Shown: piece by piece, positions 47,258-58,539 of the stretch
Position numbering within the stretch: position 1 is the first letter of the stretch
Layout of the letters: each line of letters begins with the position of its first letter
Assembly: GCA_005883765.1 (NCBI GenBank)
Contig: VBAQ01000154.1
Location: forward strand, 1 to 60,380
DNA from: Bacteroidota bacterium
Lineage (GTDB): Bacteria > Bacteroidota > Bacteroidia > Chitinophagales > Chitinophagaceae
Length of the DNA: 60,380 nucleotides
Direction: 5' to 3'
Position numbers and translations under genes: made by a program
Notes under the pieces: model-generated
Seen by the model: the letters and a program-made list of their open reading frames with translations, nothing else
Database searches by the model: none
What the model was told of the DNA's origin: nothing

Positions 47258-47441
47258 ACCCTAAATCCGCCCAAGGCGGACATTTTTATTTCCGAATTTT
47301 AGAAGGCATTCCCTCCGCCGCCTGTTCAAATTCGAAGAGTTAAAAAATATTTCAGTCATAACGAGTATAGGCCCCTTCACGCGTTTGGGGTTTCACAAGT
47401 TCAACTAGATTTTCCTTGATTCACAATTCACCATTGACCAT

Positions 47442-51545: not shown

Positions 51546-53609
51546 ATGATCAAAACTCTGCTCTGCTTAATTTGCTTTTTTATTTCTCTCCTTTCTCTTT
51601 CTCAACAAACAAATACTGATTCATCAAGAAATCTTAGTGAAGTAGTTGTAAAGGCATTCGAACAGAATAAGCAATTAAAACAAACATCGGCGGCCATCAA
51701 TTACATCGGGCAAACTCAGTTGGAGCGTTTCAACAATACAAACATTTTGCCAGCATTGAACAGCACTCCCGGTGTAAGGATGGAAGAACGTTCTCCCGGA
51801 AGCTACCGGATGAATATCCGCGGTAGCACATTAAGATCGCCATTTGGGGTCCGCAACGTAAAAATTTACTGGGATGAAATTCCATTTACTGATGCAGGAG
51901 GAAATACTTATTTAAATCAACTTAGTTATTACAACTTCAATTCTATTGAGATCATTAAGGGACCTGGAGGAGGTAGCTTGTACGGCGCAGGCACCGGCGG
52001 CGTGATCTTAATTCATAGTTTGCCTGCCGTATGGCAGCGTGGCTTTGACGCAACTGCTTTGGGAGGAAGTTATGGTTTGTTCAATACAAATCTCCAGGTG
52101 AGAGCGGGCAAGGAAAACTGGCAAAATGTGGTGAGTTATTCGCACCAAAACAGTGACGGCTACCGCCATCATACTTCTATGTATCGCGAAGTGTTGACGT
52201 GGCAAATGAAAATTGTGAGAAGTAAAAAAGAAGAAATAAAACTTTCGGTCTTGTATGGTGATCTTTATTATCAAACTCCCGGCGCTTTGACAAAATCCGA
52301 GTATGTTGCCAATCCTCGTGCAGCAAGACCTAAGGCCGGAGCCTTTCAGAGTGCGGATAGTATCAAGGCGGCGATCTTCCAGAAAACAATATTGGGGGGT
52401 GTGACAAATAATTATAGAATTTCTGATCACTTCGACAACACAACAACTTTTTATGGAGCATTTACAGACCTGACGAATCCCACTTTTCGGAATTATGAAC
52501 GACGCAGTGAACCGCAATGGGGGGCAAGAACCATTTTTAGATCTACCCATCATTGGAATCAATCTTCATTGCAAATTGTTTTTGGCAGCGAATTCCAACA
52601 AGGCTATTTTAATACCAGAGACTATGTAAACAAGTATGGCAAGCCGGGCGACATCATGACCAATGACTACATTCGTCCGACAATTTTTTCTCTATTTGCA
52701 CAGGGCGATATTCAATTACCAAAAGATTGGGACGTAACCTTAGGCTTAAGCACAAATCTAACCTCAATAAAGATCAACAGAGTTTCCGCTCCGAATTTTC
52801 AGCCCATAAATCGAAAATTTAACAATGAGCTGGCACCGAGAATAGCCTTGTCAAAAAAGATCATTGACAACTTCTGGATATATGGAAGTGTGTCGAAGGG
52901 TTTTTCTCCGCCCACTGTCGCTGAGGTGTTGCCTTCTACCACTGTAATCAGTACCGACTTACAAGCTGAACATGGAATCAACTATGAAGTAGGAATAAAA
53001 ACCAGTTGGATGCGCCAGAGATTATACACTGAAGTAAATGCATTTTATTACAGTCTGAAAAATGCGATAGTTTCCCGGAAAGATGCCAGCAATGCAGATT
53101 ATTTTACAAACGCAGGTGCTACGAAACAAAAAGGAATTGAATCGCAGGCCAGTTACAAATTCTTCGAACAGCGACATGCATTTGTTTCAGGCATTACCGT
53201 AAGGATCAGTCACACCTGGAACGAATTCAATTATGACGAGTTCAAACAATCGACAACGGATTTTTCAGGCAAGCAATTGCCCAGTGTTGCTCCGCATACT
53301 GTTGCTGCCGGACTTGATATCAACTTAAAGCAAGGGATTTATTCCGATCTCAGTTATTATTATAGTGATCGCATCGCATTGAATGATGCTAACACAGACT
53401 TTGCTTCGTCATACAATCTAGTGGGCGAGCGCCTCGGCTGGAAAAAATTATTAACAAAGAAAATGCAATTAGATCTTTTTGTTGGTGGCGAAAATCTATT
53501 TAATGTAACTTATAGTCTTGGCAATGATATTAACGCGGCCGGGGGGCGGTATTATAATGTAGCCCAGGGCAGAAATTTTTACGGGGGTGCCTCTCTTCAT
53601 TTTAATTAA
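51546..53609 (+). CDS. TonB-dependent receptor, FecA-like
   Basis: 687 residues with a signal peptide to LSLSQ and a TonB-box-like LSEVVVKAFEQ. The plug continues ILPALNSTPGVRMEERSPGSYRMNIRGST and IEIIKGPGGGSLYGAGTGGVILI. Barrel strands follow to GRNFYGGASLHFN, ending in an aromatic residue near the terminus. Lacks the carboxypeptidase-like N-domain and resembles siderophore (ferric citrate, catecholate) receptors more than SusC. Divergent from the amino acid permease. No riboswitch, sigma-regulator or Fur-like site was seen upstream, so the ligand is unknown. Confidence 0.92.
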   Translation: MIKTLLCLICFFISLLSLSQQTNTDSSRNLSEVVVKAFEQNKQLKQTSAAINYIGQTQLERFNNTNILPALNSTPGVRMEERSPGSYRMNIRGSTLRSPFGVRNVKIYWDEIPFTDAGGNTYLNQLSYYNFNSIEIIKGPGGGSLYGAGTGGVILIHSLPAVWQRGFDATALGGSYGLFNTNLQVRAGKENWQNVVSYSHQNSDGYRHHTSMYREVLTWQMKIVRSKKEEIKLSVLYGDLYYQTPGALTKSEYVANPRAARPKAGAFQSADSIKAAIFQKTILGGVTNNYRISDHFDNTTTFYGAFTDLTNPTFRNYERRSEPQWGARTIFRSTHHWNQSSLQIVFGSEFQQGYFNTRDYVNKYGKPGDIMTNDYIRPTIFSLFAQGDIQLPKDWDVTLGLSTNLTSIKINRVSAPNFQPINRKFNNELAPRIALSKKIIDNFWIYGSVSKGFSPPTVAEVLPSTTVISTDLQAEHGINYEVGIKTSWMRQRLYTEVNAFYYSLKNAIVSRKDASNADYFTNAGATKQKGIESQASYKFFEQRHAFVSGITVRISHTWNEFNYDEFKQSTTDFSGKQLPSVAPHTVAAGLDINLKQGIYSDLSYYYSDRIALNDANTDFASSYNLVGERLGWKKLLTKKMQLDLFVGGENLFNVTYSLGNDINAAGGRYYNVAQGRNFYGGASLHFN

Positions 53610-53785: not shown

Positions 53786-53799
53786 GCCGCTAAATAGTA

Positions 53800-54045
53800 G
53801 TGCTGAAGCTAAGTACATAATAATTAAACAGATTAAAAGGGAAGTCCGGTGTAAGTCCGGCGCTATCCCCGTAGCTGTAAACCGATGAGTGGTCAATTGT
53901 GAGTTGTGAGTGTTTTACTCACCATTCACAACTCACAACTCAATGCTGAATCTTCATACCACTGTTGATTTTGTTTAGCAATATCATCGGGAAGGTGTTC
54001 AGCAGAGGCCAAGCCAGAAGACCTGCCAGATCACGCAACATTCAA
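53800..54045 (+). promoter_or_regulatory. Cobalamin (adenosylcobalamin) riboswitch
   Basis: The conserved core is present in order: AGGGAAGTCCGGTG, AAGTCCGGCGCT, CCCCGTAGCTGTAAACCGATGAG (53836-53888, key bases), then ACCACTG, a GGGAAGG block (53988-53996) and the B12 box AGCCAGAAGACCTGCC (54012-54027). The arm between 53889 and 53955 is expanded by a repeat-rich inverted repeat of GTGAGTT/AACTCAC units. Downstream, CTTTCGGGTG and GCGGGAGTG-type pieces form the likely expression platform before the receptor start at 54140. It should switch off the receptor and following genes when B12 is plentiful. Confidence 0.93.
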
Positions 54046-54139
54046 TTTTGCTTTCGGGTGAAAAGCGGGAGTGTAAACGCCGGGCGGCATTTATATTCAT
54101 CTTATTTTCCGGAAGCAGTCACAAAAAATTTTTTTAGAA

Positions 54140-55999
54140 ATGAAAAAGAAAATTTTTATTGTGGCTGCCGTATTCATCAGCAGTCAACTGGCAGCACAAA
54201 CCTCGGATGAAGACAGCATTAGAACGTTGGACAAGGTGGTGATCACAGCTACCAAGTATCCAACAAAGCAAAGCAACACAGGTAAACTCGTTTCAGTAAT
54301 TACCCGGGAGCAAATTGAAAAAAGTTCGGGGAAAGACCTGGCACAGGTGCTTAATGAACAAACCGGGTTAACCCTCAGTGGGTCGTTTAGTAATCCCGGA
54401 AAAGATAAATCCATTTTTTTCAGAGGCGCCAGCAGCAATTACACGCTGATTTTATTAGATGGAATTCCACTTAATGATCCTTCCGGCACTGGGGGCACAT
54501 TTGATATTCGCTTAATTCCCCTTGAACAAATAGAACGCATTGAAATTTTGAAAGGCAGTCAATCTACATTGTATGGGTCGAATGCAATTGCCGGTGTTAT
54601 CAATATCATTTCCAAAAAACCAACGGATGATCAACTTACCGGCAAAGGTTTACTAAGCTACGGTAGCTATAATACTTTTAAGGCAAATGCCGACATCAGT
54701 CGGAAGGCAAAATGGCTTGAGTATAATTTGAATTACCAATACTTCGACACTAAGGGCATCAGCGAGGCTAAGGATACAACTGGGAATGGCCAATTTGATA
54801 ACGATGGTTTTAATCGTCAATCCTTCCAGGCAAACCTGGCATTTAAGATCAATCCTCATATCCGGTTTTCTCCTTATTACCGTTTCTCACAATTTAATGG
54901 CAAATATGATGCGGATGCCTTCACTGATGGCAATCAGCAATACAAGGCAAGGCTGGTAAATACAGGTTTCATTAGTACGGTTGGCTATAGCAAAGGAATA
55001 GTAACAATGGACTATGGTTATGATTTTACTGACCTTTCTTATAATGGCTATTTGCTGGGAGGAAAATTTAATCATGCAGAGGCTTACGTTAATCACAACT
55101 TCAATGAATATTTGCAGCTGCTGGCAGGCTTGAATTATCAAACATTCCGCTTGCCAAAGCCTGATACAACGAATAGCATATTCAGCTCTTACGCATCGCT
55201 GGTGTACCACCGGGCAGGTTTTGCAATGGAGGCAGGCAGTCGTTATAATAAGCACAACCGATATGGCGATAATTTCACTTACAGCCTCAATCCTTCTTAT
55301 TTGTTTAAGGAGAGATGGAAAATATTTGTTGACGTGTCTTCTGGCTATCGGCCACCCGCTATCACAGAATTGTTTGGACCGTTTGGTGCGAATGCACGCT
55401 TAAAACCTGAAAACAGCACCAGCGTAGAAGGTGGCATGCAGATGTGGACGTTCAATAAAAGGTTATCTGCGTTGGCTAGTTATTATAGCAGGGATATAAA
55501 GGATGTGATCGTTTATGAGTATCCACAAGGTTATATAAACCGCGACCGGCAAAAAGATCATGGAATAGAAATGGAAGTTCAGTACGTATCTGATCGTTGG
55601 AACTTTAAATCCAGTTATGCTTTTGTAGATGGTGAGCTGACCGAAAAATTAGGGAGTAAAGACACGGTGTTTCACAACCTGATCCGGCGACCTAAACACA
55701 CCATTGATCTTTTTGCAGGTTACGAGCCCACAAATAAATTTTTTGTTTCCACATCACTGCAATACTTCAGTAAACGAAATGATATTTTTTATAACCCCAA
55801 CAATTTTTATACGCCTGAGCCAAAAGTGCTGAAAGCTTATTTATTATGGAACGCATATATAGAATACAAACTTCTAAAGAATGAAATGATAATTTTTATT
55901 GATGCCAAAAATTTAACCGATAACAAGGATTATGCGGAAGTGTATGGATACAGCGTCCAGGGATTTACTGTTACGGGGGGAATACGTTTCAAACTATAA
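54140..55999 (+). CDS. btuB: BtuB-like TonB-dependent vitamin B12 receptor
   Basis: 619 residues, close to E. coli BtuB (about 610). Signal peptide MKKKIFIVAAVFISSQLAAQ; TonB-box-like LDKVVITATK; plug DLAQVLNEQTGLTLSGSF, FRGASSNYTLILLDGIPLNDPSG and IEILKGSQSTLYGSNAIAGVINIIS; the barrel ends YSVQGFTVTGGIRFKL. The cobalamin riboswitch immediately upstream fixes the assignment to a corrinoid. It heads a series of five genes read in the same direction with small or no gaps. Confidence 0.92.
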   Translation: MKKKIFIVAAVFISSQLAAQTSDEDSIRTLDKVVITATKYPTKQSNTGKLVSVITREQIEKSSGKDLAQVLNEQTGLTLSGSFSNPGKDKSIFFRGASSNYTLILLDGIPLNDPSGTGGTFDIRLIPLEQIERIEILKGSQSTLYGSNAIAGVINIISKKPTDDQLTGKGLLSYGSYNTFKANADISRKAKWLEYNLNYQYFDTKGISEAKDTTGNGQFDNDGFNRQSFQANLAFKINPHIRFSPYYRFSQFNGKYDADAFTDGNQQYKARLVNTGFISTVGYSKGIVTMDYGYDFTDLSYNGYLLGGKFNHAEAYVNHNFNEYLQLLAGLNYQTFRLPKPDTTNSIFSSYASLVYHRAGFAMEAGSRYNKHNRYGDNFTYSLNPSYLFKERWKIFVDVSSGYRPPAITELFGPFGANARLKPENSTSVEGGMQMWTFNKRLSALASYYSRDIKDVIVYEYPQGYINRDRQKDHGIEMEVQYVSDRWNFKSSYAFVDGELTEKLGSKDTVFHNLIRRPKHTIDLFAGYEPTNKFFVSTSLQYFSKRNDIFYNPNNFYTPEPKVLKAYLLWNAYIEYKLLKNEMIIFIDAKNLTDNKDYAEVYGYSVQGFTVTGGIRFKL

Positions 56000-56015
56000 C
56001 AATAAAATATTCGGT

Positions 56016-56594
56016 ATGTCCAAAAATTTTGATCCGCGAACAACGGTTTTATTGATTTTTATTTCTGCAGTGGCTTCCTTACGAGTCGCGTTCAATTTTA
56101 GTTATGATATTTCACCATTGGCAAATTTTTCACCTTTAGGTGGAATGGCAATTTTTGGAGGAGCTTATTTCAACAGGAAATGGAAGGCATTTGCTTTTCC
56201 ATTACTAATGTTATTCATTTCCGATCTCATTTTGCATCAAACGGTTTTTAAGAAATACGGAAATGGATATCTGTATAATGGATGGTATTGGGTTTATGGC
56301 TCCTTTGCCTTAATGACAATTGTCGGCATGCGTGTACTAAAAAAAATAACCATAAATCGCTTTATACTTTCAGCGCTAGCATGCGTTTTTATTCATTGGA
56401 TCATTACTGACCTTGGTGTGTGGATTGGATCAAAAATATACGCTCAAAACTTTAATGGTTTTGTCACTTGCCTGCAAAAGGCCATTCCTTATGAATGGCG
56501 CTTTCTCGCAGGTACGTTGGCTTACGGTGTAATTCTTTTTGGCTTATTTGAATGGATAAATAGGAAATACCCCGCCTTGCAAATTGCGGAATAG
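56016..56594 (+). CDS. Integral membrane protein, DUF6580-like, in B12 operon
   Basis: 192 residues from ATG 56016, 16 bases after btuB. Five or six membrane helices, with SPLGGMAIFGGAYFNRKWKAFAFPLLMLFISDLIL and FIHWIITDLGVWIGSKIY. The short polytopic shape with a Pro/Gly loop resembles ECF-transporter S components and the DUF6580 'putative transport protein' family. Its place right after a riboswitch-controlled btuB suggests a corrinoid transport role across the inner membrane, which is inference. No BtuCD genes lie in the window. Confidence 0.78.
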   Translation: MSKNFDPRTTVLLIFISAVASLRVAFNFSYDISPLANFSPLGGMAIFGGAYFNRKWKAFAFPLLMLFISDLILHQTVFKKYGNGYLYNGWYWVYGSFALMTIVGMRVLKKITINRFILSALACVFIHWIITDLGVWIGSKIYAQNFNGFVTCLQKAIPYEWRFLAGTLAYGVILFGLFEWINRKYPALQIAE

Positions 56595-56682
56595 CTACGT
56601 TGTATCGAGCCAAATGATTCCTTTGGAAAGGAATGATGATGAATAATGATTCAACAGTTTTTAAGAACTTATATTGATCACG

Positions 56683-57624
56683 ATGAAAGCCTGTTCATTT
56701 TTACCTGCAGTTACAAAAATGATATATGATATGGGGCTGCAACAGTATTTATATGGGGTAACATTTGAGTGCCCTCCAGGGGCATTGAAAGAGAAACCGA
56801 AACTAGTGCGATGCGTTCTTGAAGACAAGCAGTATTCAAGTAAAGAAATTGATAAAATATTTTCCGCAAGCAAGGCCGAGGGAAAAAGCTTATACTATGT
56901 GGATGAAGAGCTGTTGCAGCAAATACAACCTGATATAATTTTTACACAGGATGTATGTGAAGTTTGCCAGATAGATACTCAGTGTACAGCGGCGGCAGTT
57001 TCCAAATTAAAACATCAGCCCATTTTGATTTCGATTTCTCCGCAAAGTCTTGATGACGTCTATCGAGCGGCTGTTACCATTGCGTCCGCATTGGGTGAGG
57101 ATAAAAAAGCTTATTTCTATTTAGCATCACTAAAACGCCGAACAGATGGCATACTCGACAGCCTTCGGCAGCACAGTATGCCGTTAAAAAGAGTATCATT
57201 ATTGGAGTGGATCGAGCCGATTTATAATTGCGGGCACTGGATCCCCTTCCAGATTGCGCAGGCTGGTGGCATCGATATGCTGAGTAATCCTGCCGGCGCT
57301 TCCATTGTAACACCCTGGGAAAAAATTTTAAAATATGATCCAGAAGTAATCGTAATCGCGCCTTGCGGATTCGAAACGAAAAGAACAAAACAGGAAATGC
57401 ACTTACTTACTCGAAGACCAGGATGGAGTAGTATACAAGCCGTGCAAACAAGGCAAGTGTACCTTGCAGACTATGATTTGTTTACTCAACCATCGGCTTC
57501 CACGTTGACTGATGGTATTGAGTTACTGGCATCGCTTTTTCATCCGCAGGTGTTTAATGTTTCCCTGCCGCTTGTCAATAAGTATTTATCGTTTTACAAA
57601 CTGCCAGCCCATGTGCATGCATGA
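56683..57624 (+). CDS. BtuF-like cobalamin-binding protein without signal peptide
   Basis: 313 residues from ATG 56683 (TTG 56674 is possible). The periplasmic-binding-protein (TroA/BtuF) fold is seen in MKACSFLPAVTKMIYDMGL, VYLADYDLFTQPSASTLTDGIELLASL and PEVIVIAPCGFETKR. Unlike true BtuF, no signal peptide or lipobox precedes the fold; the first residues are already its first strand. Conserved Cys residues DVCEVCQIDTQC form an unusual cluster near residue 90. The protein may be cytosolic and bind corrinoid for a reaction rather than transport. Confidence 0.8.
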   Translation: MKACSFLPAVTKMIYDMGLQQYLYGVTFECPPGALKEKPKLVRCVLEDKQYSSKEIDKIFSASKAEGKSLYYVDEELLQQIQPDIIFTQDVCEVCQIDTQCTAAAVSKLKHQPILISISPQSLDDVYRAAVTIASALGEDKKAYFYLASLKRRTDGILDSLRQHSMPLKRVSLLEWIEPIYNCGHWIPFQIAQAGGIDMLSNPAGASIVTPWEKILKYDPEVIVIAPCGFETKRTKQEMHLLTRRPGWSSIQAVQTRQVYLADYDLFTQPSASTLTDGIELLASLFHPQVFNVSLPLVNKYLSFYKLPAHVHA

Positions 57625-57826
57625 AGAAAAAATTTGTCCCCGGTGCTCAAACAAATTTGAATGCAAACTGGGATCTATAACAGAATGCCAGTGCTACGGA
57701 ATTGTGTTGACTACTGAAGAAAGTGCCTTTATAGAGAACCGGTATAACGACTGTTTATGTCGAAAGTGTCTGCTCGAATTAAAAAATCGGTACATGATTT
57801 TTAAGGAAAAATTTCTTTTCAAATGA
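57617..57826 (+). CDS. Small cysteine-rich protein (CWC-like) in B12 operon
   Basis: 69 residues. Eight cysteines: C7-x2-C10, C16, C24-x-C26 and C46-x-C48-x2-C51, i.e. CPRCSNKFEC, ECQC and CLCRKC. This is the pattern of the 'CWC family cysteine-rich' proteins, with Gln in place of the usual Trp. It could bind zinc or an iron-sulfur cluster. Starts inside the last codons of the BtuF-like gene and its stop overlaps the next ATG (57823), so three genes are translationally linked. Confidence 0.75.
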   Translation: MHEEKICPRCSNKFECKLGSITECQCYGIVLTTEESAFIENRYNDCLCRKCLLELKNRYMIFKEKFLFK

Positions 57827-58539
57827 TAAGAGCTTATTTTAACTGGAGTGGAGGAAAGGACTCTGCCCTGGCACTTTGGAATGTAACGAAAGAAAAAAAA
57901 TATCGGGTTGAATACTTGCTAACAAGCATGAATAGTTCTCATCACCGCGTTTCGATGCACGGCGTTAGGCGTGAACTCCTGGAAGCGCAAGCGGCATCCA
58001 TAAATATTCCTCTGATCACAATTGAGCTGCCTGAACATCCGGGAATGAATGAGTACGAAAGTGCCATGACAGAAAAAGTCAGATGGTTAAAAGAGCAAGG
58101 AATAACTCATGGCATCTTTGGTGATATTTTTTTAGAAGATCTTAGAAATTACAGGGAAAGAAAACTCGCAATGGCAGGAATCGAATGTGTTTTCCCGATA
58201 TGGAAAAAGGATACAAAAGAATTGATGAATCAATTTCTTGCCGAAGGCTTCAAAGCAATGATCGTCTGCGTCAATCAGAAATTTCTTGACAAAAGTTTTT
58301 GCGGGGAGATCATTGATAAGAATTTTTGCACAGAGTTGCCCGCAACAGTAGACCCTTGTGGAGAAAACGGCGAGTTTCACACGTTTGTGTACGACGGCCC
58401 AATCTTTGGCAAAACAGTTTGTGTAAACAGAGGCGACATTGTCTATAAGGAATACCAGGCTCCAAGCGCTATCCGAGACAATACTCAACAAACAGAAGAC
58501 AATTATGGCTTTTATTTCTGCGATCTGCTTTTAGCTTAG
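57823..58539 (+). CDS. Dph6-like ATP-pyrophosphatase (diphthine-ammonia ligase family)
   Basis: 238 residues. N-type ATP-pyrophosphatase with the PP-loop SGGKDSALALW at residues 9-19 and GIFGDIFLEDLRNYRERKLA, VDPCGENGEFHTFVYDGPIF near 200, all matching the Dph6 family. Bacteria do not make diphthamide, so the substrate must differ. Dph6 forms an amide from a carboxylate, ammonia and ATP. In this B12-controlled operon an amidation of a corrinoid side chain is a reasonable guess, not shown. ATGA overlap with the cysteine-rich gene. Confidence 0.9.
   Translation: MIRAYFNWSGGKDSALALWNVTKEKKYRVEYLLTSMNSSHHRVSMHGVRRELLEAQAASINIPLITIELPEHPGMNEYESAMTEKVRWLKEQGITHGIFGDIFLEDLRNYRERKLAMAGIECVFPIWKKDTKELMNQFLAEGFKAMIVCVNQKFLDKSFCGEIIDKNFCTELPATVDPCGENGEFHTFVYDGPIFGKTVCVNRGDIVYKEYQAPSAIRDNTQQTEDNYGFYFCDLLLA

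Follow-up and report, generated by a model that had tools for sequence, protein, structure and literature searches.

A riboswitch-led cobamide-uptake operon of a Bacteroidota bacterium points to DUF6580 as a probable solitary B12 importer with homologues on phage contigs

The window analysed here, a 60,380-nucleotide (nt) stretch from a Bacteroidota bacterium of the Chitinophagaceae (positions 1 to 60,380, forward strand, of contig VBAQ01000154.1, assembly GCA_005883765.1), contains a cobalamin riboswitch followed by btuB and by genes for a DUF6580 membrane protein, a BtuF-like protein (BtuFc), a Cys_rich_CWC (CWC) protein and a Dph6-like DUF71 enzyme. We consider it likely that these genes form an operon, repressed by B12, with which a cobamide auxotroph takes up cobamides, with DUF6580 as the importer and cytosolic handling thereafter. 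DUF6580, which the initial annotation of this DNA left without comment, is the operon's most informative gene. It is most likely a solitary B12 importer that replaces the inner-membrane BtuCD, and both the genomic evidence and the predicted structure give this role strong support. The proteins responsible for inner-membrane B12 transport without BtuCD are in most cases still to be identified (PMC6072759). If our assignment is true, DUF6580 would be this route in roughly one in three of the genomes sampled from the phylum. New in this report are DUF6580 and its phage-borne cassettes, together with a genomic test that disfavors a CbiZ-like role for DUF71 in the phylum surveyed.

The distribution of DUF6580 is almost perfectly complementary to that of the BtuC-type permeases. 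Among 158 genomes of the host's phylum, with presence counted per genome, DUF6580 was found in 63 and FecCD, the family of BtuC, in 103 (strong matches). DUF6580 alone is present in 54 genomes, FecCD alone in 94 and both in nine, leaving a single genome (G136) with neither (Fisher 1.5e-31, without phylogenetic correction); weak partial FecCD matches in eight genomes and one DUF6580 match under the cut-off were left aside in this tally. Families f3 and f21 each hold genomes of both kinds, so the swap occurred more than once. EcfT is so rare among the DUF6580 genomes (three of 63: G004, G097 and G120) that DUF6580 is evidently solitary as a rule. Further, DUF6580 adjoins riboswitch-linked btuB in many lineages. 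The host genome (97.8% complete, 403 contigs) yielded no match to FecCD, EcfT, CbiB, CbiZ or CobS, and it encodes proteins with B12-binding domains as well as a PduO-type adenosyltransferase. With these genes lacking and B12-binding proteins present, the organism must have a different way of importing complete cobamides. Any single absence from such an assembly is weak evidence; relatives of the host show the same pattern. A second DUF6580 gene is located in the host away from the btuB operon (L188, G000:C329:15928-16461). A search of plasmids for DUF6580 found none, and the name was not found in a literature search, which also gave no link between the name BtuN and this family.

A separate line of evidence for joint action of DUF6580 and B12 receptors comes from phages. 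Scanning viral contigs with an alignment of DUF6580 gave 66 loci, and the contigs inspected are T4-like, with terminase, UvsX, a DnaB-like helicase, primase, gp32 and virion proteins beside DUF6580. A TonB receptor adjoins DUF6580, usually overlapping it, in 23 of the 66 loci, several of the contigs being near-copies. The B12 receptor model, TIGR01779, was the best for the three phage receptors tested (E 1e-59 to 1e-66, under the curated cut-off), and BtuB was the first match for the one receptor compared with the PDB. An AdoCbl-II riboswitch (72-93 bits) lies shortly upstream of DUF6580 in six of 34 loci examined (L212, L215, L223, L227, L248 and L251, on T4-like, mostly aquatic contigs), and the receptor comes next in all six. 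This row of riboswitch, DUF6580 and BtuB-like receptor is apparently a phage B12-uptake cassette; an importer role for DUF6580, if true, would explain it. In two viral loci (L239, 4428-5441, and L222), a lipoprotein follows DUF6580, and that of L239, the one searched, matches BtuG structures (E ~1e-9; entries identified through PMC10404256). Another open reading frame of L239 (5856-6551) has an RGYCC-CPY motif like that of DUF5522. A comparison of a phage DUF6580 homologue with the GenBank phage collection found nothing.

The DUF6580 gene of the window (PF20221, E 3.8e-50; 56016-56594, plus strand) encodes a six-helix inner-membrane protein with a predicted S-component, BtuM-like fold. With an alignment supplied by the 66 viral loci, structure prediction gave a model of six helices with a predicted local distance difference test score (pLDDT) of 85.2 and a predicted template-modeling score (pTM) of 0.80. 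An AlphaFold model made without an alignment had a pLDDT of 51 and was discarded. When the model was compared with known structures in VIA-align, ranks 1-15 were all S-components of energy-coupling factor (ECF) transporters (Z 10.5-14.4), and the first unrelated entry was methane monooxygenase (Z 10.2). The top match was BtuM with cyanocobalamin (8c7p; Z 14.4, root-mean-square deviation 3.0, 166 residues aligned). BtuM is described as an S-component of the solitary kind, which uses a cysteine to decyanate B12 (PMC6072759). Foldseek gave no match to the model at E <= 0.001, with the S-component ThiT ranked first, and a BFVD comparison gave no useful match. R23, N37, Y94, W136, Y142, G148 and P158 are invariant across bacterial and phage DUF6580, and D70 is nearly so.

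Several observations weigh against this interpretation of DUF6580 and its operon. The complementarity of DUF6580 and FecCD is partly phylogenetic. The fold match derives from one predicted model, and helical bundles can reach Z values of ~13-14 by chance, so that its weight rests on the uniform occupation of the top ranks by S-components. A DUF6580 profile found no relative among the sequences of the PDB. DUF6580 also seems to lack an invariant counterpart of BtuM Cys80: judged by alignment column, C152 is conserved as Cys in 19 of 29 rows from bacteria, and in a mostly phage alignment 44 of 45 rows have it. At the level of the operon, G088 holds BtuFc but gave no match to DUF71, the four sister operons are without CWC, and 29 of 44 DUF71 loci (the surroundings of the DUF71 genes of the surveyed genomes, plus two loci from a scan of genome contigs) are not near B12 genes. 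The gene set of the operon is not due to chance, because the same order (riboswitch-btuB-DUF6580-BtuFc-DUF71) recurs in four other genomes and DUF71 is B12-linked in 15 loci. That DUF6580 is an accessory membrane protein, with B12 moved by another permease, strikes us as most improbable: nine genomes do hold DUF6580 and FecCD together, but 157 of the 158 have one or the other and the two coincide only in those nine, the fold predicted for DUF6580 resembles BtuM, and its gene is repeatedly paired with btuB, phages included.

The operon, all of whose elements are on the plus strand, begins with a cobalamin riboswitch aptamer (RF00174) at 53793-54044. The covariance model is matched over its full length (model positions 1-189) with 60.3 bits, against a gathering cut-off of 31.5 (E 1.8e-12), and a scan of the whole 4.67-Mb assembly identified this as its sole cobalamin riboswitch. 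An extra hairpin, formed by a 16-nt inverted repeat at 53895-53942 (TTGTGAGTTGTGAGTG), is inserted in the variable region; with it the riboswitch is ~250 nt long, relatives being ~190-250 nt. A weaker copy of the hairpin motif is found at window position 47419. The btuB gene (54140-55999) encodes a BtuB-type, TonB-dependent receptor of the outer membrane that starts with a signal-like sequence; its TIGR01779 score is under that model's equivalog cut-off despite an E of 1.9e-69. DUF6580 follows after 16 nt, and then come BtuFc (56683-57624), CWC (57617-57826) and DUF71 (57823-58539). The initial annotation had recognized a cobalamin riboswitch ahead of btuB and four further genes and had tied the operon to B12; the covariance match, riboswitch control and the order shared with four other genomes bear this out. 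It had also described the last three genes as overlapping in an ATGA manner. Both junctions do overlap, but strict ATGA holds only for that of CWC and DUF71 (4 nt), whereas BtuFc and CWC share 8 nt (ATGCATGA). A second gene for a TonB-dependent receptor (51546-53609), with partial matches to PqqU/haem receptor models, is directly upstream of the riboswitch and outside its control.

BtuFc belongs to the Peripla_BP_2 family (PF01497, E 1.2e-13). Its start aligns with the start codons of the family, and only six codons separate it from the upstream in-frame stop; it thus has no signal peptide, which supports the location in the cytosol that had been proposed from the DNA letters. Close relatives (53-64% identity) occur in seven genomes. 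In six of these BtuFc comes after btuB-DUF6580, and in the seventh (L111) it is just upstream of a riboswitch-btuB pair. Five of the six DUF6580-BtuFc operons include DUF71; a Sir2 gene intervenes in one of these, and two have no intervening CWC. No riboswitch was found within ~1.5 kb of members of the wider family (~30% identity) at the 14 loci checked, and the link to B12 therefore holds for the close family only. No relatives of BtuFc were found in viral contigs. All 24 BtuFc sequences compared, down to 27% identity, keep the same four cysteines (C30, C92, C95 and C228), and E175, W176 and W186 are likewise invariant. The BtuFc profile matches 5ysc and BtuF chains among solved binding proteins. 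HMMER alignments to such proteins place C30 in the SDYP loop past the first helix, C92 and C95 just past the strand leading up to the cleft, and C228 in the equivalent loop of the other lobe; in the BtuF structure, the loops so aligned face the ligand. From these alignments we infer that the four cysteines converge at the ligand cleft, and BtuFc is probably a cytosolic corrinoid acceptor. The CWC protein, recognized by a domain match, has 69 amino acids, and its eight cysteines, already pointed out in the initial annotation, are all invariant in 15 aligned sequences. Two genomes that have no DUF71 (G091 and G132) likewise carry its gene next to btuB or DUF6580, which ties CWC to B12 uptake rather than to DUF71.

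The last gene of the operon encodes a Dph6-like PP-loop ATP pyrophosphatase (Diphthami_syn_2/DUF71, PF01902, E 1.7e-41). DUF71 (COG2102) has been divided into Dph6 and a DUF71-B12 subgroup on the basis of an ENGEF/YH motif and gene neighborhood; in the subgroup, this motif replaces the EGGE/DxE of Dph6, the catalytic Glu188 of Dph6 becomes His, and 75 of 102 members adjoin B12 transport genes (PMC3541065). By its sequence, the window protein is a member of DUF71-B12: its motif reads CGENGEFH, the Glu188 position is occupied by His, and the Dph6 equivalog TIGR03679 is not reached (96 bits; cut-off, 197). The PP-loop is intact, with W8, S9, G11, K12 and D13 invariant in 28 DUF71 sequences. D177, E181 and H186 are also invariant (H186 in 28/28), and C179 is found in 26/28. 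That the Dph6-like enzyme has a substrate other than diphthamide, as the initial annotation argued, is a case made earlier (PMC3541065), and the gene's link to B12 is likewise not new, having been described in 2012 (PMC3541065).

DUF71 exceeds the cut-off in 40 of the 158 genomes. Fifteen of the 44 DUF71 loci lie within a cobalamin-riboswitch/btuB or BtuFCD locus, the riboswitches being confirmed, and on the tree these loci appear in several places yet are clustered (7 label changes versus a shuffled mean of 12.7). Whether the last three genes of the window accompany B12 riboswitches elsewhere, a point on which the earlier proposal had been made to depend, thus has a divided answer: the close BtuFc family does so in 7/7 genomes, but DUF71 only in these 15 of 44 loci and CWC only in some. 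In four genomes of one family (L065, L066, L067 and L070), a gene for a Sir2-family deacylase is found inside or beside the riboswitch-btuB-DUF71 operon.

Three proposals for the function of DUF71 must be considered. First, the enzyme might act on a non-corrinoid substrate, be it another metabolite or tRNA, and be merely co-regulated with B12 uptake, which is possible if somewhat unlikely. Most of the copies away from B12 genes retain the ENGEFH motif, and other PP-loop families act on tRNA; on the other hand, the 15 loci with riboswitch-btuB or BtuFCD are spread over the tree, and in L055 DUF71 comes straight after the riboswitch as the first gene under it, with BtuFCD next. Second, the initial annotation envisaged a ligase that would spend ATP to re-amidate or repair the side-chain carboxylates of corrinoids, while CWC served as its redox partner and BtuFc held the corrinoid. 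We find this rather unlikely. In its favor, Dph6 relatives use ATP and ammonia to turn a carboxylate into an amide, invariance extends over the PP-loop residues, D177, E181 and H186, and complete cobamides as substrate would suit genomes without CbiB or CobS. The replacement of the catalytic glutamate by His in the subgroup speaks against it, and C179 could equally mean another reaction. Remodeling by rebuilding of the nucleotide loop is disfavored in the host, given a genome without CbiB, CbiZ and CobS.

Third, de Crecy-Lagard and co-workers proposed in 2012 that DUF71-B12 fills the role of CbiZ in bacteria, as an amidohydrolase that converts pseudo-B12 to cobyric acid for remodeling, citing its anticorrelation with CbiZ in bacteria and its linkage to B12 genes (PMC3541065). 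In two of our loci (L034 and L047), DUF71 indeed lies between CobU and BluB-CobT/CobS/CobC. Here a BluB-like nitroreductase is fused to CobT (L034:8649-10331, and L047) in a CobU-DUF71-BluB/CobT-CobS-CobC cluster, in a genome without CbiB. Of the 158 genomes, 31 have CbiB, six CbiZ and 44 CobS; none of the 40 DUF71 genomes, the host included, has CbiB or CbiZ, and 34 of them have no CobS. Cobyric acid produced by DUF71 would lead nowhere in these genomes because CbiB is absent. Further, 25 of the 31 CbiB genomes in the phylum surveyed have neither CbiZ nor DUF71. Statistics on the overlap of DUF71 and CbiB are inflated by kinship, most CbiB genomes being from one family, but the pattern of presence and absence is independent of them. 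The gene survey thus counts against this leading published proposal, which does not fit the Bacteroidota genomes examined and which we consider very unlikely there. In the phylum surveyed, DUF71-B12 therefore serves users of complete imported cobamides or, in a small number of cases, of cobinamide. The functions compatible with this pattern are amide repair, a hydrolysis serving some other end, and action on a non-corrinoid substrate.

Taken together, a path for cobamides may be envisioned. BtuB would carry them through the outer membrane, and DUF6580, acting as a solitary S-component-like protein, would take over from BtuCD at the inner membrane and move them through it. Protein anatomy suggests that BtuFc, having no signal peptide, could then take up the corrinoid in the cytosol, where its cysteine cluster might bind or reduce cobalt or strip the upper ligand. 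CWC and the DUF71-B12 ATPase may act on the corrinoid next; our guess at the chemistry is that DUF71 would most likely use ATP to activate a corrinoid carboxylate or amide. Adenosylation of the PduO type would trap the product. A more specific combination, in which a family of solitary DUF6580 importers delivers to a cytosolic BtuFc whose metal or Fe-S cysteines reduce or strip the corrinoid, DUF71 repairs amides and marine T4-like phages have captured the cassette, is doubtful as a whole.

The operon can be compared with several known systems. The window's DUF71 shares with the published DUF71-B12 subgroup (PMC3541065) the PP-loop ATPase, the ENGEFH motif and a B12-linked neighborhood, but its neighbors are DUF6580 and the signal-less BtuFc instead of BtuCDF, and the DUF71 genomes in this survey lack CbiB and CbiZ and mostly CobS. 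BtuFc is of the same Pfam family as the BtuF of BtuCDF (PF01497), which is among its solved relatives; it differs in having no signal peptide, in its four invariant cysteines and in belonging to a genome without BtuC. The BtuB-BtuG corrinoid capture of Bacteroides (PMC10404256) has no BtuG-like counterpart in the window's operon, although the latter does have a BtuB-type B12 receptor, and two phage loci have a lipoprotein beside DUF6580, one of them (L239) BtuG-like. The closest parallel to DUF6580 is BtuM of Thiobacillus denitrificans (PMC6072759; 8c7p). No sequence similarity between the two was detected, and the cobalt-ligating cysteine, invariant in BtuM, apparently lacks an invariant equivalent in DUF6580. 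What they share is a six-helix S-component fold, predicted in the case of DUF6580, a genome without EcfT and a link to B12.

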